Shown: piece after piece, positions 2,472 to 43,331 of the stretch
Layout of the letters: each line of letters starts with the position of its first letter
How positions within the stretch are numbered: the stretch's first letter is position 1
Assembly: GCA_028696165.1 (NCBI GenBank)
Contig: JAQVHQ010000001.1
Span: 62,001-126,000, forward strand
Origin: Lachnospiraceae bacterium
Lineage (GTDB): Bacteria > Bacillota > Clostridia > Lachnospirales > Lachnospiraceae
Reading direction: 5' to 3'
Length of the DNA stretch: 64,000 bases
The notes under the pieces: generated by a model
Told to the model about the DNA's origin: nothing
What the model saw: only the letters and a program-made list of their open reading frames with translations
The model's database searches: none
Program-made: the position numbers and the translations under genes

Positions 2472-2514
2472 CCGTTTCAAGCAGGCGAAAACCGTTTTCG
2501 CCTGCTTGAAACGG
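2472..2514. repeat. 43-bp perfect palindrome sharing a 25-bp core with 43283-43331
   Basis: A perfect inverted repeat with 21-base arms around a single C. The core GGCGAAAACCGTTTTCGCC is followed by a further half copy (GTTTTCGCCTGC at about 2514-2525). It lies between the T-box terminator and the trpX start, so it would be in the transcribed leader as a second hairpin. The same 25-bp core sits between two convergent genes at 43283-43331 with different outer arms. Confidence 0.8.
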
Positions 2515-17051: not shown

Positions 17052-17130
17052 AAACTCAGCCCCTAACCATCATACTCCACCACTCCCGTGCCATACCATG
17101 GCACGAGCCCTAACTGCCAACCCATCTTTT
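17052..17130 (+). repeat. Single diverged copy of the 87-bp C-rich hairpin unit
   Basis: The stretch begins AAACTCAGCCCCTAACC and contains CGTGCCAT-ACC-ATGGCACG (17087-17105). It matches in order the units at 23344-23955 (AAATCCAGCCCCTAACC ... CGTGCC-CCAC-GGCACG). It lies 55 bases before the large branched inverted repeat at 17160, close to the roughly 49-base spacing seen for the last unit of the second array. Confidence 0.65.
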
Positions 17131-17159
17131 GTCTTTTCACCCACCTCCGCCAACTCCCA

Positions 17160-17449
17160 GGATTTACCCCTCCACATCCGGACAGCCGGCAGAACACACA
17201 ACAGCCTTGGATAATCAGCGTCGCACATTTAGTAAGACTTAGAGTAAAATAAAGGACGAAAACCGATGAAATTGGGTTTACAAAACCCAATTTCAAAACC
17301 ACCCTGAGTGGTGCTTTCATCAGAAAGCACCGCGAATGTGGTTGATTCGGTTATCGTCCTTTATTTTACTCTTAGTCTTACTTAATGTGCAAAGCCATCC
17401 AAGGCTGTTGTGTGTTCTGCCGGCTGTCCGGATGTGGAGGGGTAAATCC
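17160..17449. repeat. Large branched inverted-repeat element, copy 1
   Basis: Arms 17160-17212 and 17397-17449 are perfectly complementary over 53 bases. After an asymmetric internal loop, the stem continues for about 40 more pairs with three T-T/A-A mismatches (17223-17266 with 17347-17390). The apex branches into two hairpins. Hairpin A is 12 bp (17268-17294). Hairpin B is 17297-17343: outer stem AACCAC/GTGGTT, an internal loop CCTGAGT opposite GCGAAT, inner stem GGTGCTTTC/GAAAGCACC and loop ATCA. It fills the gap between two convergent genes. It is far longer than a terminator. Function unknown; copy 2 is at 23960-24244. Confidence 0.85.
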
Positions 17450-17462
17450 GTCCCCCATACCA

Positions 17463-20060
17463 CTAAGACTCGCTCTCTGCCATCCCTTCCGTAATCGTCT
17501 TCTGCTCCTGCACAAACTTCTCAGCCGAAGCCTTCTCCGCCTTAGTAGCCTTCTTATGCTCCGTAGGCTGATTAATAACAACCTGAGGGAATGGAATATT
17601 AATATTATGCTTATCAAATATCAACTTCATCTCACGGTTCAAATCCCTGCACAACTGTACACGATCCGCTTCTGAACACTGTGCCACAATCTTAATCGTA
17701 ACACTGGAATCCCCTAAAGCAGACACCCCGCGATAAAACGGTCCGGAAGCAATACTCGGAACTCTCTCCTTCACTAATGGAAGTTCCTTATCAAGAATAC
17801 TCTCCACATGTTCCAGCGACTCATCATATTCAATGCCAATATCAATCGCTGCAAAAGAATACTTCTTAGTCATATTAATAACACCGCTGACCTTCGAGTT
17901 ATTCAAAATCTTAATATCCTGACTAGGAGCCTCAATCTTAGTGGAACGGATTCCAATCTCACGAACCGTACCTCTCCAGTCACCAATCGTAACAATATCA
18001 CCAACTCTGAATTCTCCTTCAAATACAATGAAGATACCTGCCAGAATATCACTTACCAGCGACTGCGCACCAAGACCAACAATCAAAGTCAGCAGTCCGG
18101 CAGATGCAAGGATAGTAGAAGAATCCACACCCAGGAAATTCATACAATAAAACAATGTTCCCAGTACAGATATGTACTTAATAAAGCTGTTAAACAAACG
18201 GCCAATCGTCTCAGCTCTTGCGCCCATATTGGCCAAAGCCATCTTTAAAAGTCTCCGAACAATGGATGTAATAACCATAACCTCAATTACCACAAATGCA
18301 ATGTAAGTAAATGAGAAAATATTCGGTACTTTTTCCCAACGACGGTTAATGATATAGGAAAGAATAGAATTCTTATCAAAAGAACCTCTCTGTGTATACA
18401 TATAAGCAACTAAAAATACTGCAACTACAGCTAAAATCCAGAAAATAACTCTCTTCAATTTCTCCTCTGCAGTACAATCTTTCCATTTAGTCGTATTCAA
18501 ACTCCACCGACTGATTACAGAATCTACTTTACGTACTTTTCCGCTTCCGGTTACGATTTCAAAAGTTCCCGTCGGTTCTTCCAAAAATTCATTGGAAGCT
18601 GATTCTTTCTTCTGAATCAATACTTTCTGTGGTTCACCAATAAGTGCCAGTATAAAGATAATCATCAAGATGATAAAGCTGATTACCGTAGCCGCCGCTG
18701 CCAGGAACAACCGTCCAGAGGTAATTGTATGCAATGGAACAGCCACATAGATAAACTCTCCGTCATATTCCATACTGCTCACAAAACACTTCGTATCATC
18801 AATAGTCTGATATCCGGTATAATCATCCGTAAGCGCTGCTGAATTTAAACCAACAGCTTTCGCCTTGCGTCCGATTTTACCCTCTTCCGGATAATACACC
18901 AGAGTAGAATCTTCCTTATTAACCGCCATGGTAAATCCATCATTTTCCACTGCAATATTATCTAAAGTATAAGGAGTCTCTACAGCCTTAACTTTATCAT
19001 CTAATCTCTGTGGTGAGATACCCAGTTCCACCATACCTGGTGCGTCTATTCTATGTGTTCCAATATACTGAATGTAAGAGCCCGGATCATATACGTCATC
19101 TTCCGCATCCTTGATTACGATATCTTTAGACCCTTTGATAACATCCCAGAATTCATAGGAAGCAGAATCCCAATCATGACTGAGCGTAAATTCTGTAAAG
19201 ATTCCATTCGATTCAATTACTTCACCATCTTCATTGAAAATATAGATGTATTTAACCTGTGCACGCTCAGATAATTCTATCAAACGCTCTGAATCTACAA
19301 GTGTTGGATCTTTACCAATCAAATAAGCAATATTCTTTGTACGTCCTTCATATTCCTGTACATATTCCTCTTTTAAATCTTCCAGTTTTTCCTGATTCTC
19401 ATCAAAGATATCATTGATATCGCTTATCTTCTCCGCAGATCTAGACGACTGCGTCGATAACACAGATAATGTCTGAAGATAGAAAGAAGCGAGGAAAATC
19501 ACAACCAATCCCACAATCAGAACATGTATCGCCTTACTTCCGATTGTCTGATTAAAATAGACTTTTCCACCAAGGTGGATATACTCCATCTCTTCATTAT
19601 CTTCTTCGAACTTCTTATCCTGCTCACCGCGGATAAAATGGAAATAGATAATAATAATTGCAAGTACAACTGCAAACATCAACGTTATCATGTATACCAT
19701 CTTCATGATTGTATTCTGCATCATAGCTCTTGGTCTTAATGCAATAAACTGATAGCTGTTATCTTCAAAGTCTACCGCCCGGCTCTCTGCATAAAATTCT
19801 TCATCTGCACAGACTGCCCATCCGGCATATCCATCTGTCATAACATCTTCGTCCAACTGCGCATCAGCCAGAGATTTTCCAATTAAATCTTCCTGTGGAT
19901 GATAAGCAATCGTATTATCCTGCGTATTAACTACTACAATATACCCTTTGCTTCCCACTTTTATGGTATGCAGAGAATATGCAAGTGAAGTAAGTTCTTC
20001 TTCTGTTTCCATAAACTCTGTGATATCCCGTCCTGCAACTACAGACATTCCATTTTCCAT
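17463..20060 (-). CDS. MscS-family channel with extracytoplasmic sensor region (3' part of a TGA-split gene)
   Basis: This frame gives 865 aa from the first ATG after an in-frame TGA. It contains sensor-like segments (about 1-85 and 205-420), transmembrane helices (about 110-135, 170-190, 445-470, 545-560, 585-605) and a MscS pore and beta domain (about 640-760: GLGAQSLVSDILAGIFIVFEG, VGDIVTIGDWRG). It ends in a cytosolic alpha/beta domain and a charged tail. MscS domains gate ions in response to membrane tension; the sensor fusion suggests an added ligand input. The upstream ORF 20076-20519 is in the same frame and supplies the missing N-terminus, so the 20060 start is probably not native. 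Confidence 0.8.
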   Translation of the reverse strand: MENGMSVVAGRDITEFMETEEELTSLAYSLHTIKVGSKGYIVVVNTQDNTIAYHPQEDLIGKSLADAQLDEDVMTDGYAGWAVCADEEFYAESRAVDFEDNSYQFIALRPRAMMQNTIMKMVYMITLMFAVVLAIIIIYFHFIRGEQDKKFEEDNEEMEYIHLGGKVYFNQTIGSKAIHVLIVGLVVIFLASFYLQTLSVLSTQSSRSAEKISDINDIFDENQEKLEDLKEEYVQEYEGRTKNIAYLIGKDPTLVDSERLIELSERAQVKYIYIFNEDGEVIESNGIFTEFTLSHDWDSASYEFWDVIKGSKDIVIKDAEDDVYDPGSYIQYIGTHRIDAPGMVELGISPQRLDDKVKAVETPYTLDNIAVENDGFTMAVNKEDSTLVYYPEEGKIGRKAKAVGLNSAALTDDYTGYQTIDDTKCFVSSMEYDGEFIYVAVPLHTITSGRLFLAAAATVISFIILMIIFILALIGEPQKVLIQKKESASNEFLEEPTGTFEIVTGSGKVRKVDSVISRWSLNTTKWKDCTAEEKLKRVIFWILAVVAVFLVAYMYTQRGSFDKNSILSYIINRRWEKVPNIFSFTYIAFVVIEVMVITSIVRRLLKMALANMGARAETIGRLFNSFIKYISVLGTLFYCMNFLGVDSSTILASAGLLTLIVGLGAQSLVSDILAGIFIVFEGEFRVGDIVTIGDWRGTVREIGIRSTKIEAPSQDIKILNNSKVSGVINMTKKYSFAAIDIGIEYDESLEHVESILDKELPLVKERVPSIASGPFYRGVSALGDSSVTIKIVAQCSEADRVQLCRDLNREMKLIFDKHNINIPFPQVVINQPTEHKKATKAEKASAEKFVQEQKTITEGMAESES

Positions 20061-20075
20061 AGATGCGATATAATA

Positions 20076-20519
20076 TCAGGTCATATCCAATGTAACTGCA
20101 CCTTTATCGTCAAAAAGTGTGGCAAGCGCCTCATCTTTTAAAACATCTGCGCTGCCTCCGCTTGAAGCAATCACATTCTCCTGCGCATCCAGAATATACA
20201 AATCTGACAATGCCCACTGATTCGCCATCTCTTCCACAGAACCTAAATCCTCTGGCATATTCTCATAATAATAAGCGATGGTATCAACCTTAGCCTGGCT
20301 GAAATCATCATATTTCGCCAGTCTGTCCGCTGATTCTTCCTCATTAGCTTCCAACCGCTGCACTGCGATATCCAGTTTATCACTAGAATTCTCCTTCTGC
20401 TGGGCAACCGAAAATCTGGTCTGAATCAACAGTAAAACTCCAAACATCAATACCACTCCAACAATTCCCAGAACAATATCGAATAGAAGTTTCTTCCTAC
20501 GTTCCTTTTTCCCGTACAT
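20076..20519 (-). pseudogene. 5' part of the MscS-sensor gene, ended by in-frame TGA
   Basis: 147 aa starting at an ATG (20519) with GGAGGG upstream. A cytoplasmic Arg/Lys cluster (MYGKKERRKK), one transmembrane helix (about 14-32) and the first part of an extracytoplasmic sensor domain are followed by TGA at 20076-20078. The next five codons and the ATG at 20060 continue in the same frame. Joined, the product would be about 1018 aa with a complete sensor. A single TGG-to-TGA change would explain the break. It could be a real nonsense mutation, a sequencing error or recoding; no SECIS-like hairpin is apparent. Confidence 0.75.
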
Positions 20520-20681
20520 GTTCTTCCCTCCTGCTTGTCAAATAATAGCATTAACTTTTCTTCATAAAATAAGATGTCCTCTTATTGCTATTAATAGTTT
20601 TATTTTAATTTGGTAAAGAAGGAAAGTCAATCACAAATATAACATATTCCAATATATTTTTTGAATTTTTCAAAAAAGTCA

Positions 20682-20710
20682 TTGACATTTCCATATTACA
20701 ATGATATGAT
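20682..20710 (+). promoter_or_regulatory. Promoter of tRNA-Leu
   Basis: TTGACA (20682-20687), 17 bases, TATGAT (20705-20710), 34 bases before the tRNA. The gap upstream (20520-20681) between the channel gene and this promoter is AT-rich, with nothing else recognised. Confidence 0.85.
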
Positions 20711-20744
20711 AGCTAAGGATTTTGCAAGAGATATTGCAGATCAT

Positions 20745-20828
20745 GCGGGAGTGCTGGAATTGGCAGACAGGCATGACTAAGGATCATGTTTCAGTATTGA
20801 AGTGTGGGTTCAAGTCCCATCTCCCGCA
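20745..20828 (+). tRNA. tRNA-Leu (anticodon AAG)
   Basis: Acceptor stem GCGGGAG/CTCCCGC with discriminator A, D arm, anticodon stem CATGA/TCATG with loop CTAAGGA (anticodon AAG), a long class-II variable arm and a T arm GTGGG-TTCAAGT-CCCAT. CCA is not encoded. Confidence 0.96.
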
Positions 20829-20861
20829 TTTATGACGAATCCGTAGAGATTTCGTAAGAGT

Positions 20862-20906
20862 AAAAAAGCCCGAAACCATTATATTTCTTGTGGTTTCGGG
20901 CTTTTT
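20862..20906 (+). terminator. Intrinsic terminator of tRNA-Leu
   Basis: AAAAAGCCCGAAACCA pairs with TGGTTTCGGGCTTTTT (stem about 16 bp), ending in a T-run. It lies 34 bases after the tRNA. Confidence 0.92.
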
Positions 20907-20967
20907 GCTGTTGTTTTTAAGGGAGCGAGGTGCGAATATGTAATAATGTTAACCCTTCCCTATGATT

Positions 20968-21591
20968 TACGTGTCATAGAGAAGAAATGTACTGTTTGAT
21001 ACGTACTTGCTCCTCCGTTTTACGTGTCATTTGGACGGAAAGATACTTTTTGACACGTACTTGCTCCTCCATTTTACGTGTCATTTGGACGGAAAGATAC
21101 TTTTTGACACGTACTTGCTCCTCCATTTTACGTGTCATTTTAGCAAAAACTACTTTGGGATACGTACTTGCTCCTCCATTTTACGTGTCATTTAAACAAA
21201 AACTACTTTTAGATACGTACTTGCCGCTTCAATTTACGTGTCATTTAAACAAAAACCACTTTGGGATACGTACTTGCCGCTTCAATTTACGTGTCATTTG
21301 AACAAAAACTACTTTTAGATACGTACTTGACGCTTCAATTTACGTGTCATTTGAGCAAAAACTACTTTTAGATACGTACTTAACACTTCAATTTACATGT
21401 CATTTGAGCAAAAACTACTTTTAGATACGTACTTAACACTTCAATTTACGTGTCATTTGAGCAAAAACTACTTTTAGATACGTACTTGACACTTCAATTT
21501 ACGTGTCATTTGAGCAAAAACTACTTTTAGATACGTACTTGGCACTTCAATTTACGTGTCATTTGAACAGAAAGATACTTTTAGACACGTA
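20968..21591 (+). repeat. 12-fold tandem array of about 53-bp palindromic units
   Basis: Twelve TACGTGTC motifs alternate with twelve GATACGTA or GACACGTA motifs at a period of 53-54 bases. The array begins with TACGTGTC (20968) and ends with GACACGTA (21591), so it resolves into 12 hairpins of 8 bp joined by linkers such as CTTGACACTTCAATT. Linkers change gradually across the array (GCTCCTCCATT on the left, GCCGCTTCAATT in the middle, GACACTTCAATT on the right). Open frames across it are a by-product of the near-54 period. Confidence 0.9.
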
Positions 21592-21604
21592 CTTCCAACC
21601 TGCA

Positions 21605-21860
21605 GTGAATGTCAAATGGAACAAACATGCAAAATGCAACTGAATATCTATGATATCAACAAACTCCTGGCTCATATCCTGAAAAAAATAAATCAACAGC
21701 AGATGACCATCCTTATCCCCCTTGTAATTTTGAATTTCCGTGATGCATTTGCAAAAACCACACGCTGGAGAATCTCCAGACATTGAAAGGATATGATGAA
21801 AAAGAGAAAAAGCTGAAAGTCTGGCTTGTATTCCCAAAAAGAAAGCAGTATACTATCTTT
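21605..21860 (+). pseudogene. Possible decayed gene remnant
   Basis: Two short, protein-like stretches in different frames follow each other. The first is ECQMEQTCKMQLNIYDINKL and onward from about 21605. The second is LENLQTLKGYDEKEKKLKVW and onward, ending about 21865 beside tRNA-Gly. A frameshift between them would explain the pattern. No family is recognised and chance is not excluded. Confidence 0.25.
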
Positions 21861-21862
21861 AT

Positions 21863-21933
21863 GCAGATATAGTTCATCGGTAGAACGCTAGCTTCCCAAG
21901 CTGGAGAGACGGGTTCGATTCCCGCTATCTGCT
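21863..21933 (+). tRNA. tRNA-Gly (anticodon CCC)
   Basis: A 71-nt cloverleaf: acceptor GCAGATA/TATCTGC, discriminator T, anticodon stem CTAGC/GCTGG with loop TTCCCAA (anticodon CCC), T arm GACGGG-TTCGATT-CCCGC. It is followed by a T-run at 21933-21938 that may help termination. CCA is not encoded. Confidence 0.95.
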
Positions 21934-22097
21934 TTTTTACATGATTCTATACTTTTTTATATGTTTTCTATATGTTTTAATATAATTCTATACTTTTTAA
22001 TATGCTTCTATATCCATTTTCCCATATTCAGTCTATATTCTTAGATATTTCTTTTCAAGCTTCAATCCATACACTATCCCACCAATATCCAACTGAC

Positions 22098-23222
22098 TTA
22101 CCTTCCTCGCCAATTTTTATGAACCAACTCTTCAAACTTCTTCAAATTCTGGTCCGAATGTTCAATCTCTCTGGAATAGCGATACACAATCTCTGTAACA
22201 TCCTCCGGATAAATCTGCTTCTCATTTCGAATCCATCTGCACTTTAACATCTCTTCAATGATCATCACACTTGCAGCCGCAGCCTGCACCTTAGAATAAA
22301 GTCTACCGTCATAAACAGCTCCACAAAAATAAGTAAAGATAAAATAAACCAGAAGTTGTTCCTTTTGAATCTCCCAGGGCACATCCCGAGATGACATATA
22401 TATCTGAAACTCATCTGTAATCTTCCCCCAGTGCTGCTCATTCTTTCCAAACAATCTTGCCTGAGTCTCCTTAATCTGAACATACCAGTCCTCTTTCAAA
22501 AACTCCATCACTTCCAGCAGGCCAAAAATCCTCTTCACAAATGCAAATCTCAGATTATGCGATTGTCCGGACAAATCCCTTACCACAAACACCGCCGCAC
22601 AATCCTTCTTATATCTCTCCATAACATCAAAACAAGAAAACAACTCCTCCCTATCCACCCGAATCTGCATATCATGGGCCAACCCAAGACACATTCCAAC
22701 CCGTACTTCTACAGGCATACTACGATTCTGTAAAAACACAATCATCTCATCCCTTGCATCCGCAAGCACAGAATAGAGGAAAGGATCATAATCATCAAAC
22801 ACATCCTCACCCTCTCTCTCCACACTCACAAACCGCACCGGATCCACCCTTTTCATCAAAATATCCGCCACCTCCGGACAGGAAATAGACAGCGTAATTT
22901 CCCGGACATTTTCAAACACCTCCACATGACGCGGATACAACCTGCAAGTCCTGCAAAGACTCCCCTCCCCCAGATTAATATACATATCACACAAATTATC
23001 ATCATTAAGAAAAGTACATCTCTTCTCCCCATCCTGTCTAAAAGCAGACTTCCTCCAGTCAATAGAACGACGCAGCCGCTTGCGAAACGCCCCCTTAACA
23101 GCATGATACTTTCTAAGAGATTTCGCATCCGACACAATCTGCCACCCCGCACAGCAAGTATCCTCACACAAATCAGCCACACAATGAAACTCATTATAAT
23201 AATCCGGTCTAGTATATAACAT
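22098..23222 (-). CDS. FliB-family flagellin lysine-N-methylase-like protein
   Basis: A 374-aa protein with the Cys-rich N-terminus typical of the FliB family: CEDTCCAGW (about residues 19-27), then CTFLNDDNLCDMY and SLCRTCRLYPRH (about 69-102), which in this family are thought to bind a metal or Fe-S centre. The C-terminal two thirds is helical and poorly conserved. FliB methylates flagellin lysines in Salmonella; no flagellar gene lies in this window, so the substrate here is unknown. ATG at 23222 follows AGAGGGA. A G-rich coding strand in its 5' half continues the strand bias of the repeats upstream. Confidence 0.78.
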   Translation of the reverse strand: MLYTRPDYYNEFHCVADLCEDTCCAGWQIVSDAKSLRKYHAVKGAFRKRLRRSIDWRKSAFRQDGEKRCTFLNDDNLCDMYINLGEGSLCRTCRLYPRHVEVFENVREITLSISCPEVADILMKRVDPVRFVSVEREGEDVFDDYDPFLYSVLADARDEMIVFLQNRSMPVEVRVGMCLGLAHDMQIRVDREELFSCFDVMERYKKDCAAVFVVRDLSGQSHNLRFAFVKRIFGLLEVMEFLKEDWYVQIKETQARLFGKNEQHWGKITDEFQIYMSSRDVPWEIQKEQLLVYFIFTYFCGAVYDGRLYSKVQAAAASVMIIEEMLKCRWIRNEKQIYPEDVTEIVYRYSREIEHSDQNLKKFEELVHKNWRGR

Positions 23223-23343
23223 CTATTCATCCCTCTTTATCTTCATATATAATACCCATAGAAAGGGTATTCTCACATCTAATCATCTAGAAGAGTATAT
23301 CACTCCCATATAAATTTTTCTATAGCATCCTACTTCTCCCCAC

Positions 23344-23955
23344 AAATTCGCTTCCTAACCTCCCTCCTTCCACAAGCCCCATGCCCCACGGCACGCGACC
23401 TCCCACCACACCCTCCATATCTCCACTCACAAATCCAGCCCCTAACCTCCCTCCTTCCACAAGCCCCGTGCCTCACAGCACGCGACCTCCCACCACACCC
23501 TCCATATCTTCTCCCACAAATCCAGCCCCTAACCTCCCTCCTTCCACAAGCCCCGTGCCCCACGGCACGCGACCTCCCACCACACCCTCCATATCTCCTC
23601 CCACAAATCCAGCCCCTAACCTCCCTCCTTCCACAAGCCCCGTGCCCCACGGCACGCGACCTCCCACCACACCCTCCATATCTCCTCCCACAAATCCAGC
23701 CCCTAACCTCCCTCCTTCCACAAGCCCCGTGCCCCACGGCACGCGACTTCCCACCACACCCTCCATATCTCACCCACAAATCCAGCCCCTAACCTCCCTC
23801 CTTCCACAAGCCCCGTGCCTCACGGCACGCGACTTCCCACCACACCCTCCATATCTCCTCCCACAAATCCACCCCCCAACCTCCCTCCTTCCACACTCCA
23901 TGCCTCACGACACGCGACTTCCCACCACACCCTCCATAACCTTCCTCCCTCCACC
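23344..23955 (+). repeat. Tandem array of seven 87-bp C-rich units, each with a CGTGCC hairpin
   Basis: Units begin at 23344, 23431, 23518, 23605, 23692, 23778 and 23865 (period 87, once 86; the last is partial). Each holds CCCCTAACCTCCCTCCTTCC, a hairpin CGTGCC-CCAC-GGCACG or a variant, and ACCTCCCACCACACCCTCCA. The end units have the most changed hairpins. Because 87 is divisible by three, long frames without stops occur on both strands (for example 23381-23983 plus and 23330-23779 minus). These look like artefacts. The minus strand has repeated GGG/GGGG runs that could form G-quadruplexes. Confidence 0.92.
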
Positions 23956-23959
23956 ATCA

Positions 23960-24244
23960 GCCTTGGCGTTTCATTCGGTTTGAGGGCAGCACATAGAATG
24001 TTTTTATTGATATGGAGCGAACTGATAAGATTCTTAGCGCGCAAAGGTGTCTATTTCATGGGCGAGAGGTGTTTACCAAAACACCTCTCGAAGGCCCCCT
24101 GAAGTGTGTATGCATCAGCATACACGCTGAATGGGCCTGCTCCCATGAAATAGACACCTTTGCACGCTTAGAATCCTTACAGTAAGATCCCCTATCAATA
24201 AAAACATCTATGCGCTGCCCTCAAACCGAATGAAACGCCAAGGC
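23960..24244. repeat. Large branched inverted-repeat element, copy 2
   Basis: Outer arms 23960-24012 and 24193-24244 pair over about 50 bases with one A-C mismatch and one bulge. After an internal loop, 24025-24062 pairs with 24142-24180. The apex again branches: hairpin A, 12 bp with loop ACCA (24063-24090), and hairpin B at 24092-24138. Hairpin B has outer stem AGGCCC/GGGCCT, an internal loop CCTGAAGT opposite GCTGAAT, inner stem GTGTATGC/GCATACAC and loop ATCA. Layout, loop and internal loop match copy 1 while stem sequences differ. It lies between the 87-bp array and the proA promoter. Confidence 0.85.
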
Positions 24245-24275
24245 GTCCCTCCTCCCAACAAACCCCAACATCCAT

Positions 24276-43282: not shown

Positions 43283-43331
43283 TAACCAAAAGTGGCAGGC
43301 GAAAACCGTTTTCGCCTGCCACTTTTGGTTA
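43283..43331. terminator. 49-bp perfect palindrome between convergent genes, sharing its core with 2472-2514
   Basis: Arms of 24 bases around one C, with outer arms TAACCAAAAGTGGCAGGCG and the same central GGCGAAAACCGTTTTCGCC as at 2472-2514. It fills the gap between the XRE-cupin stop (43272) and the sugar permease stop (43335), so it may end both transcripts. A real U-tract is lacking. Confidence 0.7.

Follow-up and report, generated by a model that had tools for sequence, protein, structure and literature searches.

What are the two large branched inverted repeats carried by a 64,000-nt stretch of the genome of a Lachnospiraceae bacterium (GenBank assembly GCA_028696165.1, contig JAQVHQ010000001.1, positions 62,001 to 126,000; this whole stretch is referred to below as the window)? 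The original prediction, made from the sequence alone, had placed them at 17160-17449 and 23960-24244, and these coordinates were confirmed. Our analysis revealed that the two hairpins are members of an undescribed mobile palindromic family of a gut bacterium, which is present in dozens of related genomes.

Family size and distribution

Nucleotide searches of the genome that contains the window (hereafter the host genome) yielded many relatives of the two hairpins, and a covariance model was then made from 35 copies. By covariance model, the host genome (3.77 Mb) carries ~59 copies. The two copies originally described are real, but they are 2 of ~59, and they belong to an element that is also mobile, end-tagged and oriented. 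A first model matched 19 of 397 Lachnospiraceae genomes and a second, broader model 32, with Diplocloster modestus and D. agilis (family Lachnospiraceae) as two named carriers. Among 391 genomes sampled across the class, which included few of the same family, the host genome alone was matched. Copy number is patchy: 42 copies were detected in genome G244, 20 and 16 in the two Diplocloster genomes, and 15 in G383 as against 3 in its genus-mate G035. In addition, G280 gave ~25 weak matches (27-37 bits), which possibly represent a distinct but related hairpin family.

The elements measured were about 233-486 nt long, a unit size of about 230-490 nt, and no open frame fits within these hairpin units. 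A search of Rfam with the window elements gave no family match at the gathering score; at a low threshold the sole match with E<1 was a generic long-hairpin plant microRNA model, far below its cut-off. The open-access literature on such elements and on long palindromes contained no description of the family that we could find, which agrees with the earlier view that it is undescribed. A search for viral copies gave no match with the host-genome pattern. Capture of the arms from phage or plasmid sequence was also considered and rejected, since one long-armed copy, used as a query, gave no match.

Evidence for mobility

The element spreads by copying to new sites, and its ends are preserved exactly. 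In D. modestus we detected four closely similar copies (398, 398, 395 and 238 nt, the last representing an internal deletion), which have identical end points and unrelated flanks. D. agilis contains a contiguous empty site matching one of these recent copies and lacks the hairpin at two further D. modestus insertion loci, while other element loci are common to both species.

Folding of the window copies and covariation of the apex

The predicted layout of an outer stem, an inner stem and a two-hairpin apex was borne out by folding and by arm complementarity (Table 1). In copy 1, outer arms of 53 nt (100% complementary) are followed by inner arms of 49 nt (90%) and then by the 13-bp hairpin A. 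The single-strand folding energies of copies 1 and 2 were -138.1 and -126.5 kcal/mol (z-scores of -27.8 and -24.2, respectively, versus dinucleotide shuffles), both with two apical hairpins. The stems had been described as unrelated in sequence and yet alike in structure; covariation supports this, but they are not wholly unrelated, as the mismatch motifs CTTAG/CTTAG and CTGAT/CAG are common to the arms of both copies.

Table 1. Position of the two palindromic elements in the window and of their parts
Feature	Position	Strand	Evidence or remark
Copy 1, whole palindromic element	17160-17449	+	covariance-model match 17252-17360, 96.8 bits
Copy 1, outer stem, left arm	17160-17212	+	partner 17397-17449, 100% paired
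Copy 1, outer stem, right arm	17397-17449	+	pairs with left arm
Copy 1, inner stem, left arm	17218-17266	+	holds conserved CTTAG mismatch motif
Copy 1, inner stem, right arm	17347-17395	+	pairs with left arm
Copy 1, apical hairpin A	17267-17295	+	fold and family covariation
Copy 1, apical hairpin B	17297-17343	+	CCTGA/GAAT internal loop, ATCA loop
Copy 1, conserved CA in 5' flank	17158-17159	+	A at -1 in 53/53 copies counted
Copy 1, end tag GTCC (other strand GGAC)	17450-17453	+	conserved across host-genome copies
Accessory small hairpin GTGCC...GGCAC, 5' of copy 1	17088-17104	+	found 5' of 29/60 copies
Copy 2, whole palindromic element	23960-24244	+	covariance-model match 24048-24155, 121.9 bits
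Copy 2, apical hairpin A	24063-24090	+	fold and family covariation
Copy 2, apical hairpin B	24092-24138	+	fold and family covariation
Copy 2, conserved CA in 5' flank	23958-23959	+	end-motif comparison
Copy 2, end tag GTCC	24245-24248	+	end-motif comparison
Tandem array (87 bp x 6.9) of the accessory hairpin GTGCC...GGCAC, immediately 5' of copy 2	23339-23938	+	

The covariation previously claimed from two copies held in an alignment of the apex from 109 copies of about ten genera, fitted to the covariance model. In this alignment 96.1% of the cells were paired, all 43 apical pairs were altered on both sides, and 1637 double-changed cells were counted, compared with 445 in shuffles. The covariation score was 0.93, versus 0.21 for shuffled alignments and at most 0.13 with slid partners. 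Because the 109-copy alignment was fitted to the model, a MAFFT alignment of 35 copies provides the more independent test; here 38 of the 43 pairs showed double changes (229 cells versus 75 shuffled). The check suggested earlier, a covariance-model search of relatives and of Rfam, yielded many homologues with compensatory changes and no Rfam family. The unpaired residues singled out by the original prediction, the CCTGA/GAAT internal loop and the ATCA loop, were recovered and vary hardly at all among the 109 copies (TGA and GAAT kept in 103-106, ATC of the hairpin B loop in 105-107).

Some copies with an altered apex were also observed. L142 (C26:67109) and a copy at L170, ~160 nt 5' of the L170 element, retain paired arms but no longer have the apical domain or hairpin B. 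At G000 C67:13069-13176 the apex is inverted relative to the end tags, as arm-arm recombination would yield.

Ends, end tag and accessory hairpin

The exact ends of the element are CA/G...C/GTCC, where the slashes mark the element boundaries. Among the host-genome copies counted, in sets that had been pre-filtered by the end motif, position -1 was A in 53/53 and the tag was GTCC in about 50/50; a few copies depart from these ends. The same ends were observed in G115, in G244 and in most of the older Diplocloster copies, the tag often being GGCC in Diplocloster. The tetranucleotide CGTC is present at the element end, but its first C pairs with the opening G. No direct target duplication was detected beside typical ends of this kind in the host genome.

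The small hairpin GTGCC...GGCAC, sometimes in tandem, was found on the 5' side of 29 of 60 host-genome copies and on the 3' side of none. All eight close pairs of elements (<2 kb apart) are inverted, with their tags outermost (8/8). In G115 (L277-L285) and G347 (L269-L276) an extra outer stem, which in G115 is GGGAATGTTT...AAACATTCCC, extends beyond the tags, so that the tag sits in an internal loop.

Free sequence and kept complementarity of the arms

The arm sequence is free and its complementarity is maintained. Arm length is mostly ~80-178 bp in the host genome and reaches ~215 bp in D. agilis, terminal arm sequences differ among most copies of the host genome, and conserved mismatches occur at fixed places (e.g. 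T-T in CTTAG/CTTAG). Comparison of two orthologous pairs gave identities of 79-91% for the flanks (gaps counted) and 92-95% for the core, but only 61-77% for the outer arms (baseline for shuffled arms, 51-53%), and yet the arms within each copy are 96-99% self-complementary. Changes, including changes in length, have therefore been copied between the arms of one element. Correction of quasi-palindromes by template switching is an established process, and would be the natural mechanism for such arm correction; alternatively, the cause may be selection acting on the fold.

Association with RAYT genes

A census of Y1 transposases revealed long, low-copy proteins resembling REP-associated Y1 transposases (RAYTs; REP, repetitive extragenic palindromic sequence) in many element-bearing genomes, the Y1 genes found lying elsewhere in the genome, outside the element. 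The NCBIfam model for REP-associated tyrosine transposases, REP_Tyr_transpos, matched three of these RAYT-like proteins, one above its cut-off and two below. A profile made from nine RAYT-like proteins matched 80 of the 397 Lachnospiraceae genomes: 20/32 of those with the element versus 60/365 of the others (Fisher p 4.5e-8). The association persisted (i) without the genomes from which the profile was derived (13/25 versus 59/364, p 9e-5), (ii) with one genome kept per same-genus pair (p 2e-6), and (iii) within the subset of 22 genomes that reach 3 Mb or more (4/5 versus 2/17, p 0.009). In two of the 20 genomes with both, G280 and the element-rich G178, the RAYT gene is broken by stop codons, which in G178 fits later loss.

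Some RAYT genes are bordered by hairpins with GGAC...GTCC feet. The small palindrome GCAGGCGAAAACNGTTTTCGCCTGC, found in the window (2481-2505 and 43295-43319) and at L245, also borders the RAYT gene of the host genome (G000 C96) and apparently constitutes the repeat family of that RAYT. The action of the host RAYT on its own repeat GCAGGCGAAAAC was set aside, as this is a separate small repeat family.

Strand, orientation and gene neighbourhood

In the plus strand of the apical hairpins G-T pairs outnumber A-C pairs (98 versus 29; one pair supplies 24, and the counts ignore shared inheritance), whereas in the arms of host-genome copies A-C exceeds G-T (69 versus 35). The original prediction had left the strand undecided, with a single-stranded DNA form as a possibility; the apical hairpins now point to the plus strand, whereas the arms show no such preference. 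The arm A-C excess could stem from strand-biased mutation. Because whole-arm counts are confounded by replication-linked mutation skew and by the conserved mismatches, they were dropped as a strand test, which was limited to the apical hairpins.

The plus strand of the element is the C-rich strand in 53/60 copies of the host genome, 18/20 of D. modestus, 4/4 of D. agilis and 8/9 of G115. In 50/60 copies the gene lying 3' of the element is directed towards it, and in 34 of these 50 the predicted stop of that gene lies within ~40 nt of the element (crude open-frame calls). Between convergent genes the skew rule holds in 20/23 cases (two-sided binomial p about 5e-4); therefore gene direction does not account for the orientation. 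As a standard rule, the leading strand is G-rich, and on this basis the strand that bears GGAC on the 5' side of its hairpin would be the lagging-strand template, the strand on which Y1 transposases of the IS200/IS605 type act (PMC6006769).

Possible mode of transposition

Our leading proposal, to which we give an even chance, is that the elements are non-autonomous REP-like mobile palindromes, recognised by their fold and moved as single-stranded DNA (ssDNA), with a RAYT cutting and joining. Recognition, as for REPs, would depend on the fold together with the GGAC tag and would take place when the replication fork exposes one strand as ssDNA; the strand with GGAC on the 5' side, i.e. the G-rich one, would be the lagging-strand template. 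The enzyme that cuts and joins this strand would be a Y1 (HUH) transposase of the REP-associated type, with its gene at another place in the genome. The palindrome would be kept because one arm is copied onto the other inside the hairpin, by template switching or by gene conversion. Copies would persist mainly just behind stop codons, where an insertion would be least damaging and might protect the 3' end of the mRNA.

Several observations weigh against this reading. The apical G-T bias favours folding of the plus strand, not of the GGAC-5' strand that the Y1 model requires, and orientation is unbiased in G383 (8/15) and mixed in G347. No RAYT match was obtained at the threshold used in 12 of the 32 element genomes, the co-occurrence was corrected for phylogeny solely by dropping same-genus pairs, and at the RAYT loci inspected the giant element was not found, other small palindromes being present there. 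Moreover, in the recent D. modestus copies CCC takes the place of GTCC at the end, which can be read as a target duplication of 3-4 bp (possibly CCCT).

It is possible, and we advance this tentatively, that the family forms a separate mobile class recognised by shape (a branched tip and mismatches at fixed places, with arbitrary, fast-changing arms), the folded single strand being moved by an enzyme other than RAYT. Candidates for another enzyme are a retroelement reverse transcriptase, a recombinase of the IS110 or the tyrosine type, and a host factor; we regard it as unlikely that one of these moves the element and that the RAYT link is coincidental. The 12 positive genomes without RAYT, the separate palindromes of the RAYT loci and a folding constraint on the plus strand, rather than on the REP-like strand, speak for such an enzyme, whereas the persistence of the association without profile genomes and without same-genus pairs, the REP-like combination of tag and hairpin, and the inverted dimers speak for the REP-like proposal.

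We consider it improbable that the element is primarily a structured RNA or an mRNA 3'-end element (terminator or stabiliser), spread by mobility and kept for its function. This would agree with the genes facing the element and ending close to it, with the preference for G-T over A-C among covarying apical pairs and with the near-invariant TGA/GAAT and ATC residues, but the apex strand under constraint runs antisense to the gene behind which the element lies, the distribution is patchy, and the recent insertions and empty sites show that copies are dispensable. An intrinsic terminator was rejected: a pattern scan flagged stem-loops inside both window copies, yet no T-run follows the complete hairpin. 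Finally, an ordinary miniature inverted-repeat transposable element (MITE) that depends on a DDE transposase and has terminal inverted repeats of great length would explain the inverted repeat, the lack of coding capacity, the exact ends and the possible CCCT duplication, but is very improbable, because terminal sequences vary between copies of one genome and leave no shared terminal inverted repeat for a transposase to bind, typical ends lack a direct duplication, and conservation lies at the apex and not at the ends.

Significance of the family

In bacteria, long palindromes are generally regarded as unstable, as SbcCD cuts the hairpins that they form. The host genome carries SbcD besides its ~59 elements, and loss of SbcD was rejected as the cause of palindrome persistence, since SbcD scored above the cut-off in most element-rich genomes. 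The family constitutes a natural experiment on the persistence and self-correction of palindromes, on how mobile DNA can be recognised by its shape, and on insertion coupled to the replication fork. The near-identical D. modestus copies and the empty sites of D. agilis make its mobility directly testable. The family also accounts for repeats in Lachnospiraceae genomes that will mislead assembly and searches for RNA motifs.

Other features of the window

A tandem array (53-bp unit x 11.5) with ATTTACGTGTCATTT and GATACGTACTTG lies at 20990-21601, between two tRNA genes, and a T-box leader (Rfam RF00230) at 2571-2818 on the minus strand.

Comparison with known systems

The element likely works like a REP. 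It resembles the REP, REPIN and BIME (bacterial interspersed mosaic element) sequences associated with RAYTs (Nunvar 2010, PMC2817692; Bertels 2011, PMC3116915) in being an intergenic palindrome with no coding capacity and a statistical link to RAYT, with a short unpaired tag adjoining the hairpin and with inverted dimers whose tags are outermost. We did not file it as a REP because of its size, its tag and the genes that it flanks: REPs are palindromes of 20-40 bp (the present element is ~10x longer), are tagged GTAG and not GTCC/GGAC, and border the RAYT gene, which this element does not at the RAYT genes inspected. Furthermore, its two-hairpin apex is conserved across genera and its arms are free in sequence.

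The CGTC-tagged REPs (Di Nocera 2013, PMC3733652) likewise have CGTC at one end of the palindrome (in the present family with its first C paired), form dimers that are predominantly inverted and have no known dedicated transposase. However, these have a stem of 8-9 bp and a loop of 4-5 bases without a branched apex, compared with arms of mostly 80-215 bp and a branched apex in the present family, and they were reported from five phyla, Firmicutes not among them (PMC3733652).

The ends of IS200/IS605 elements (Y1) share single-stranded hairpins, a tetranucleotide target beside the hairpin and a fork-tied orientation (PMC6006769 and general background), but there the transposase lies between two small end hairpins, whereas the present element is one giant hairpin with no transposase inside. 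Bacterial MITEs (Correia/NEMIS, ERIC, RUP, Bcr1) are likewise short, dispersed, non-coding inverted repeats; they have shared terminal repeats of 15-30 bp, in contrast to the variable termini and conserved core described here. Integron attC sites differ in layout, and no integrase or cassette context was seen with the present elements, although no search aimed at one was made. In these sites it is the folded DNA strand that is recognised and the arms are variable, a principle that the present family would share.

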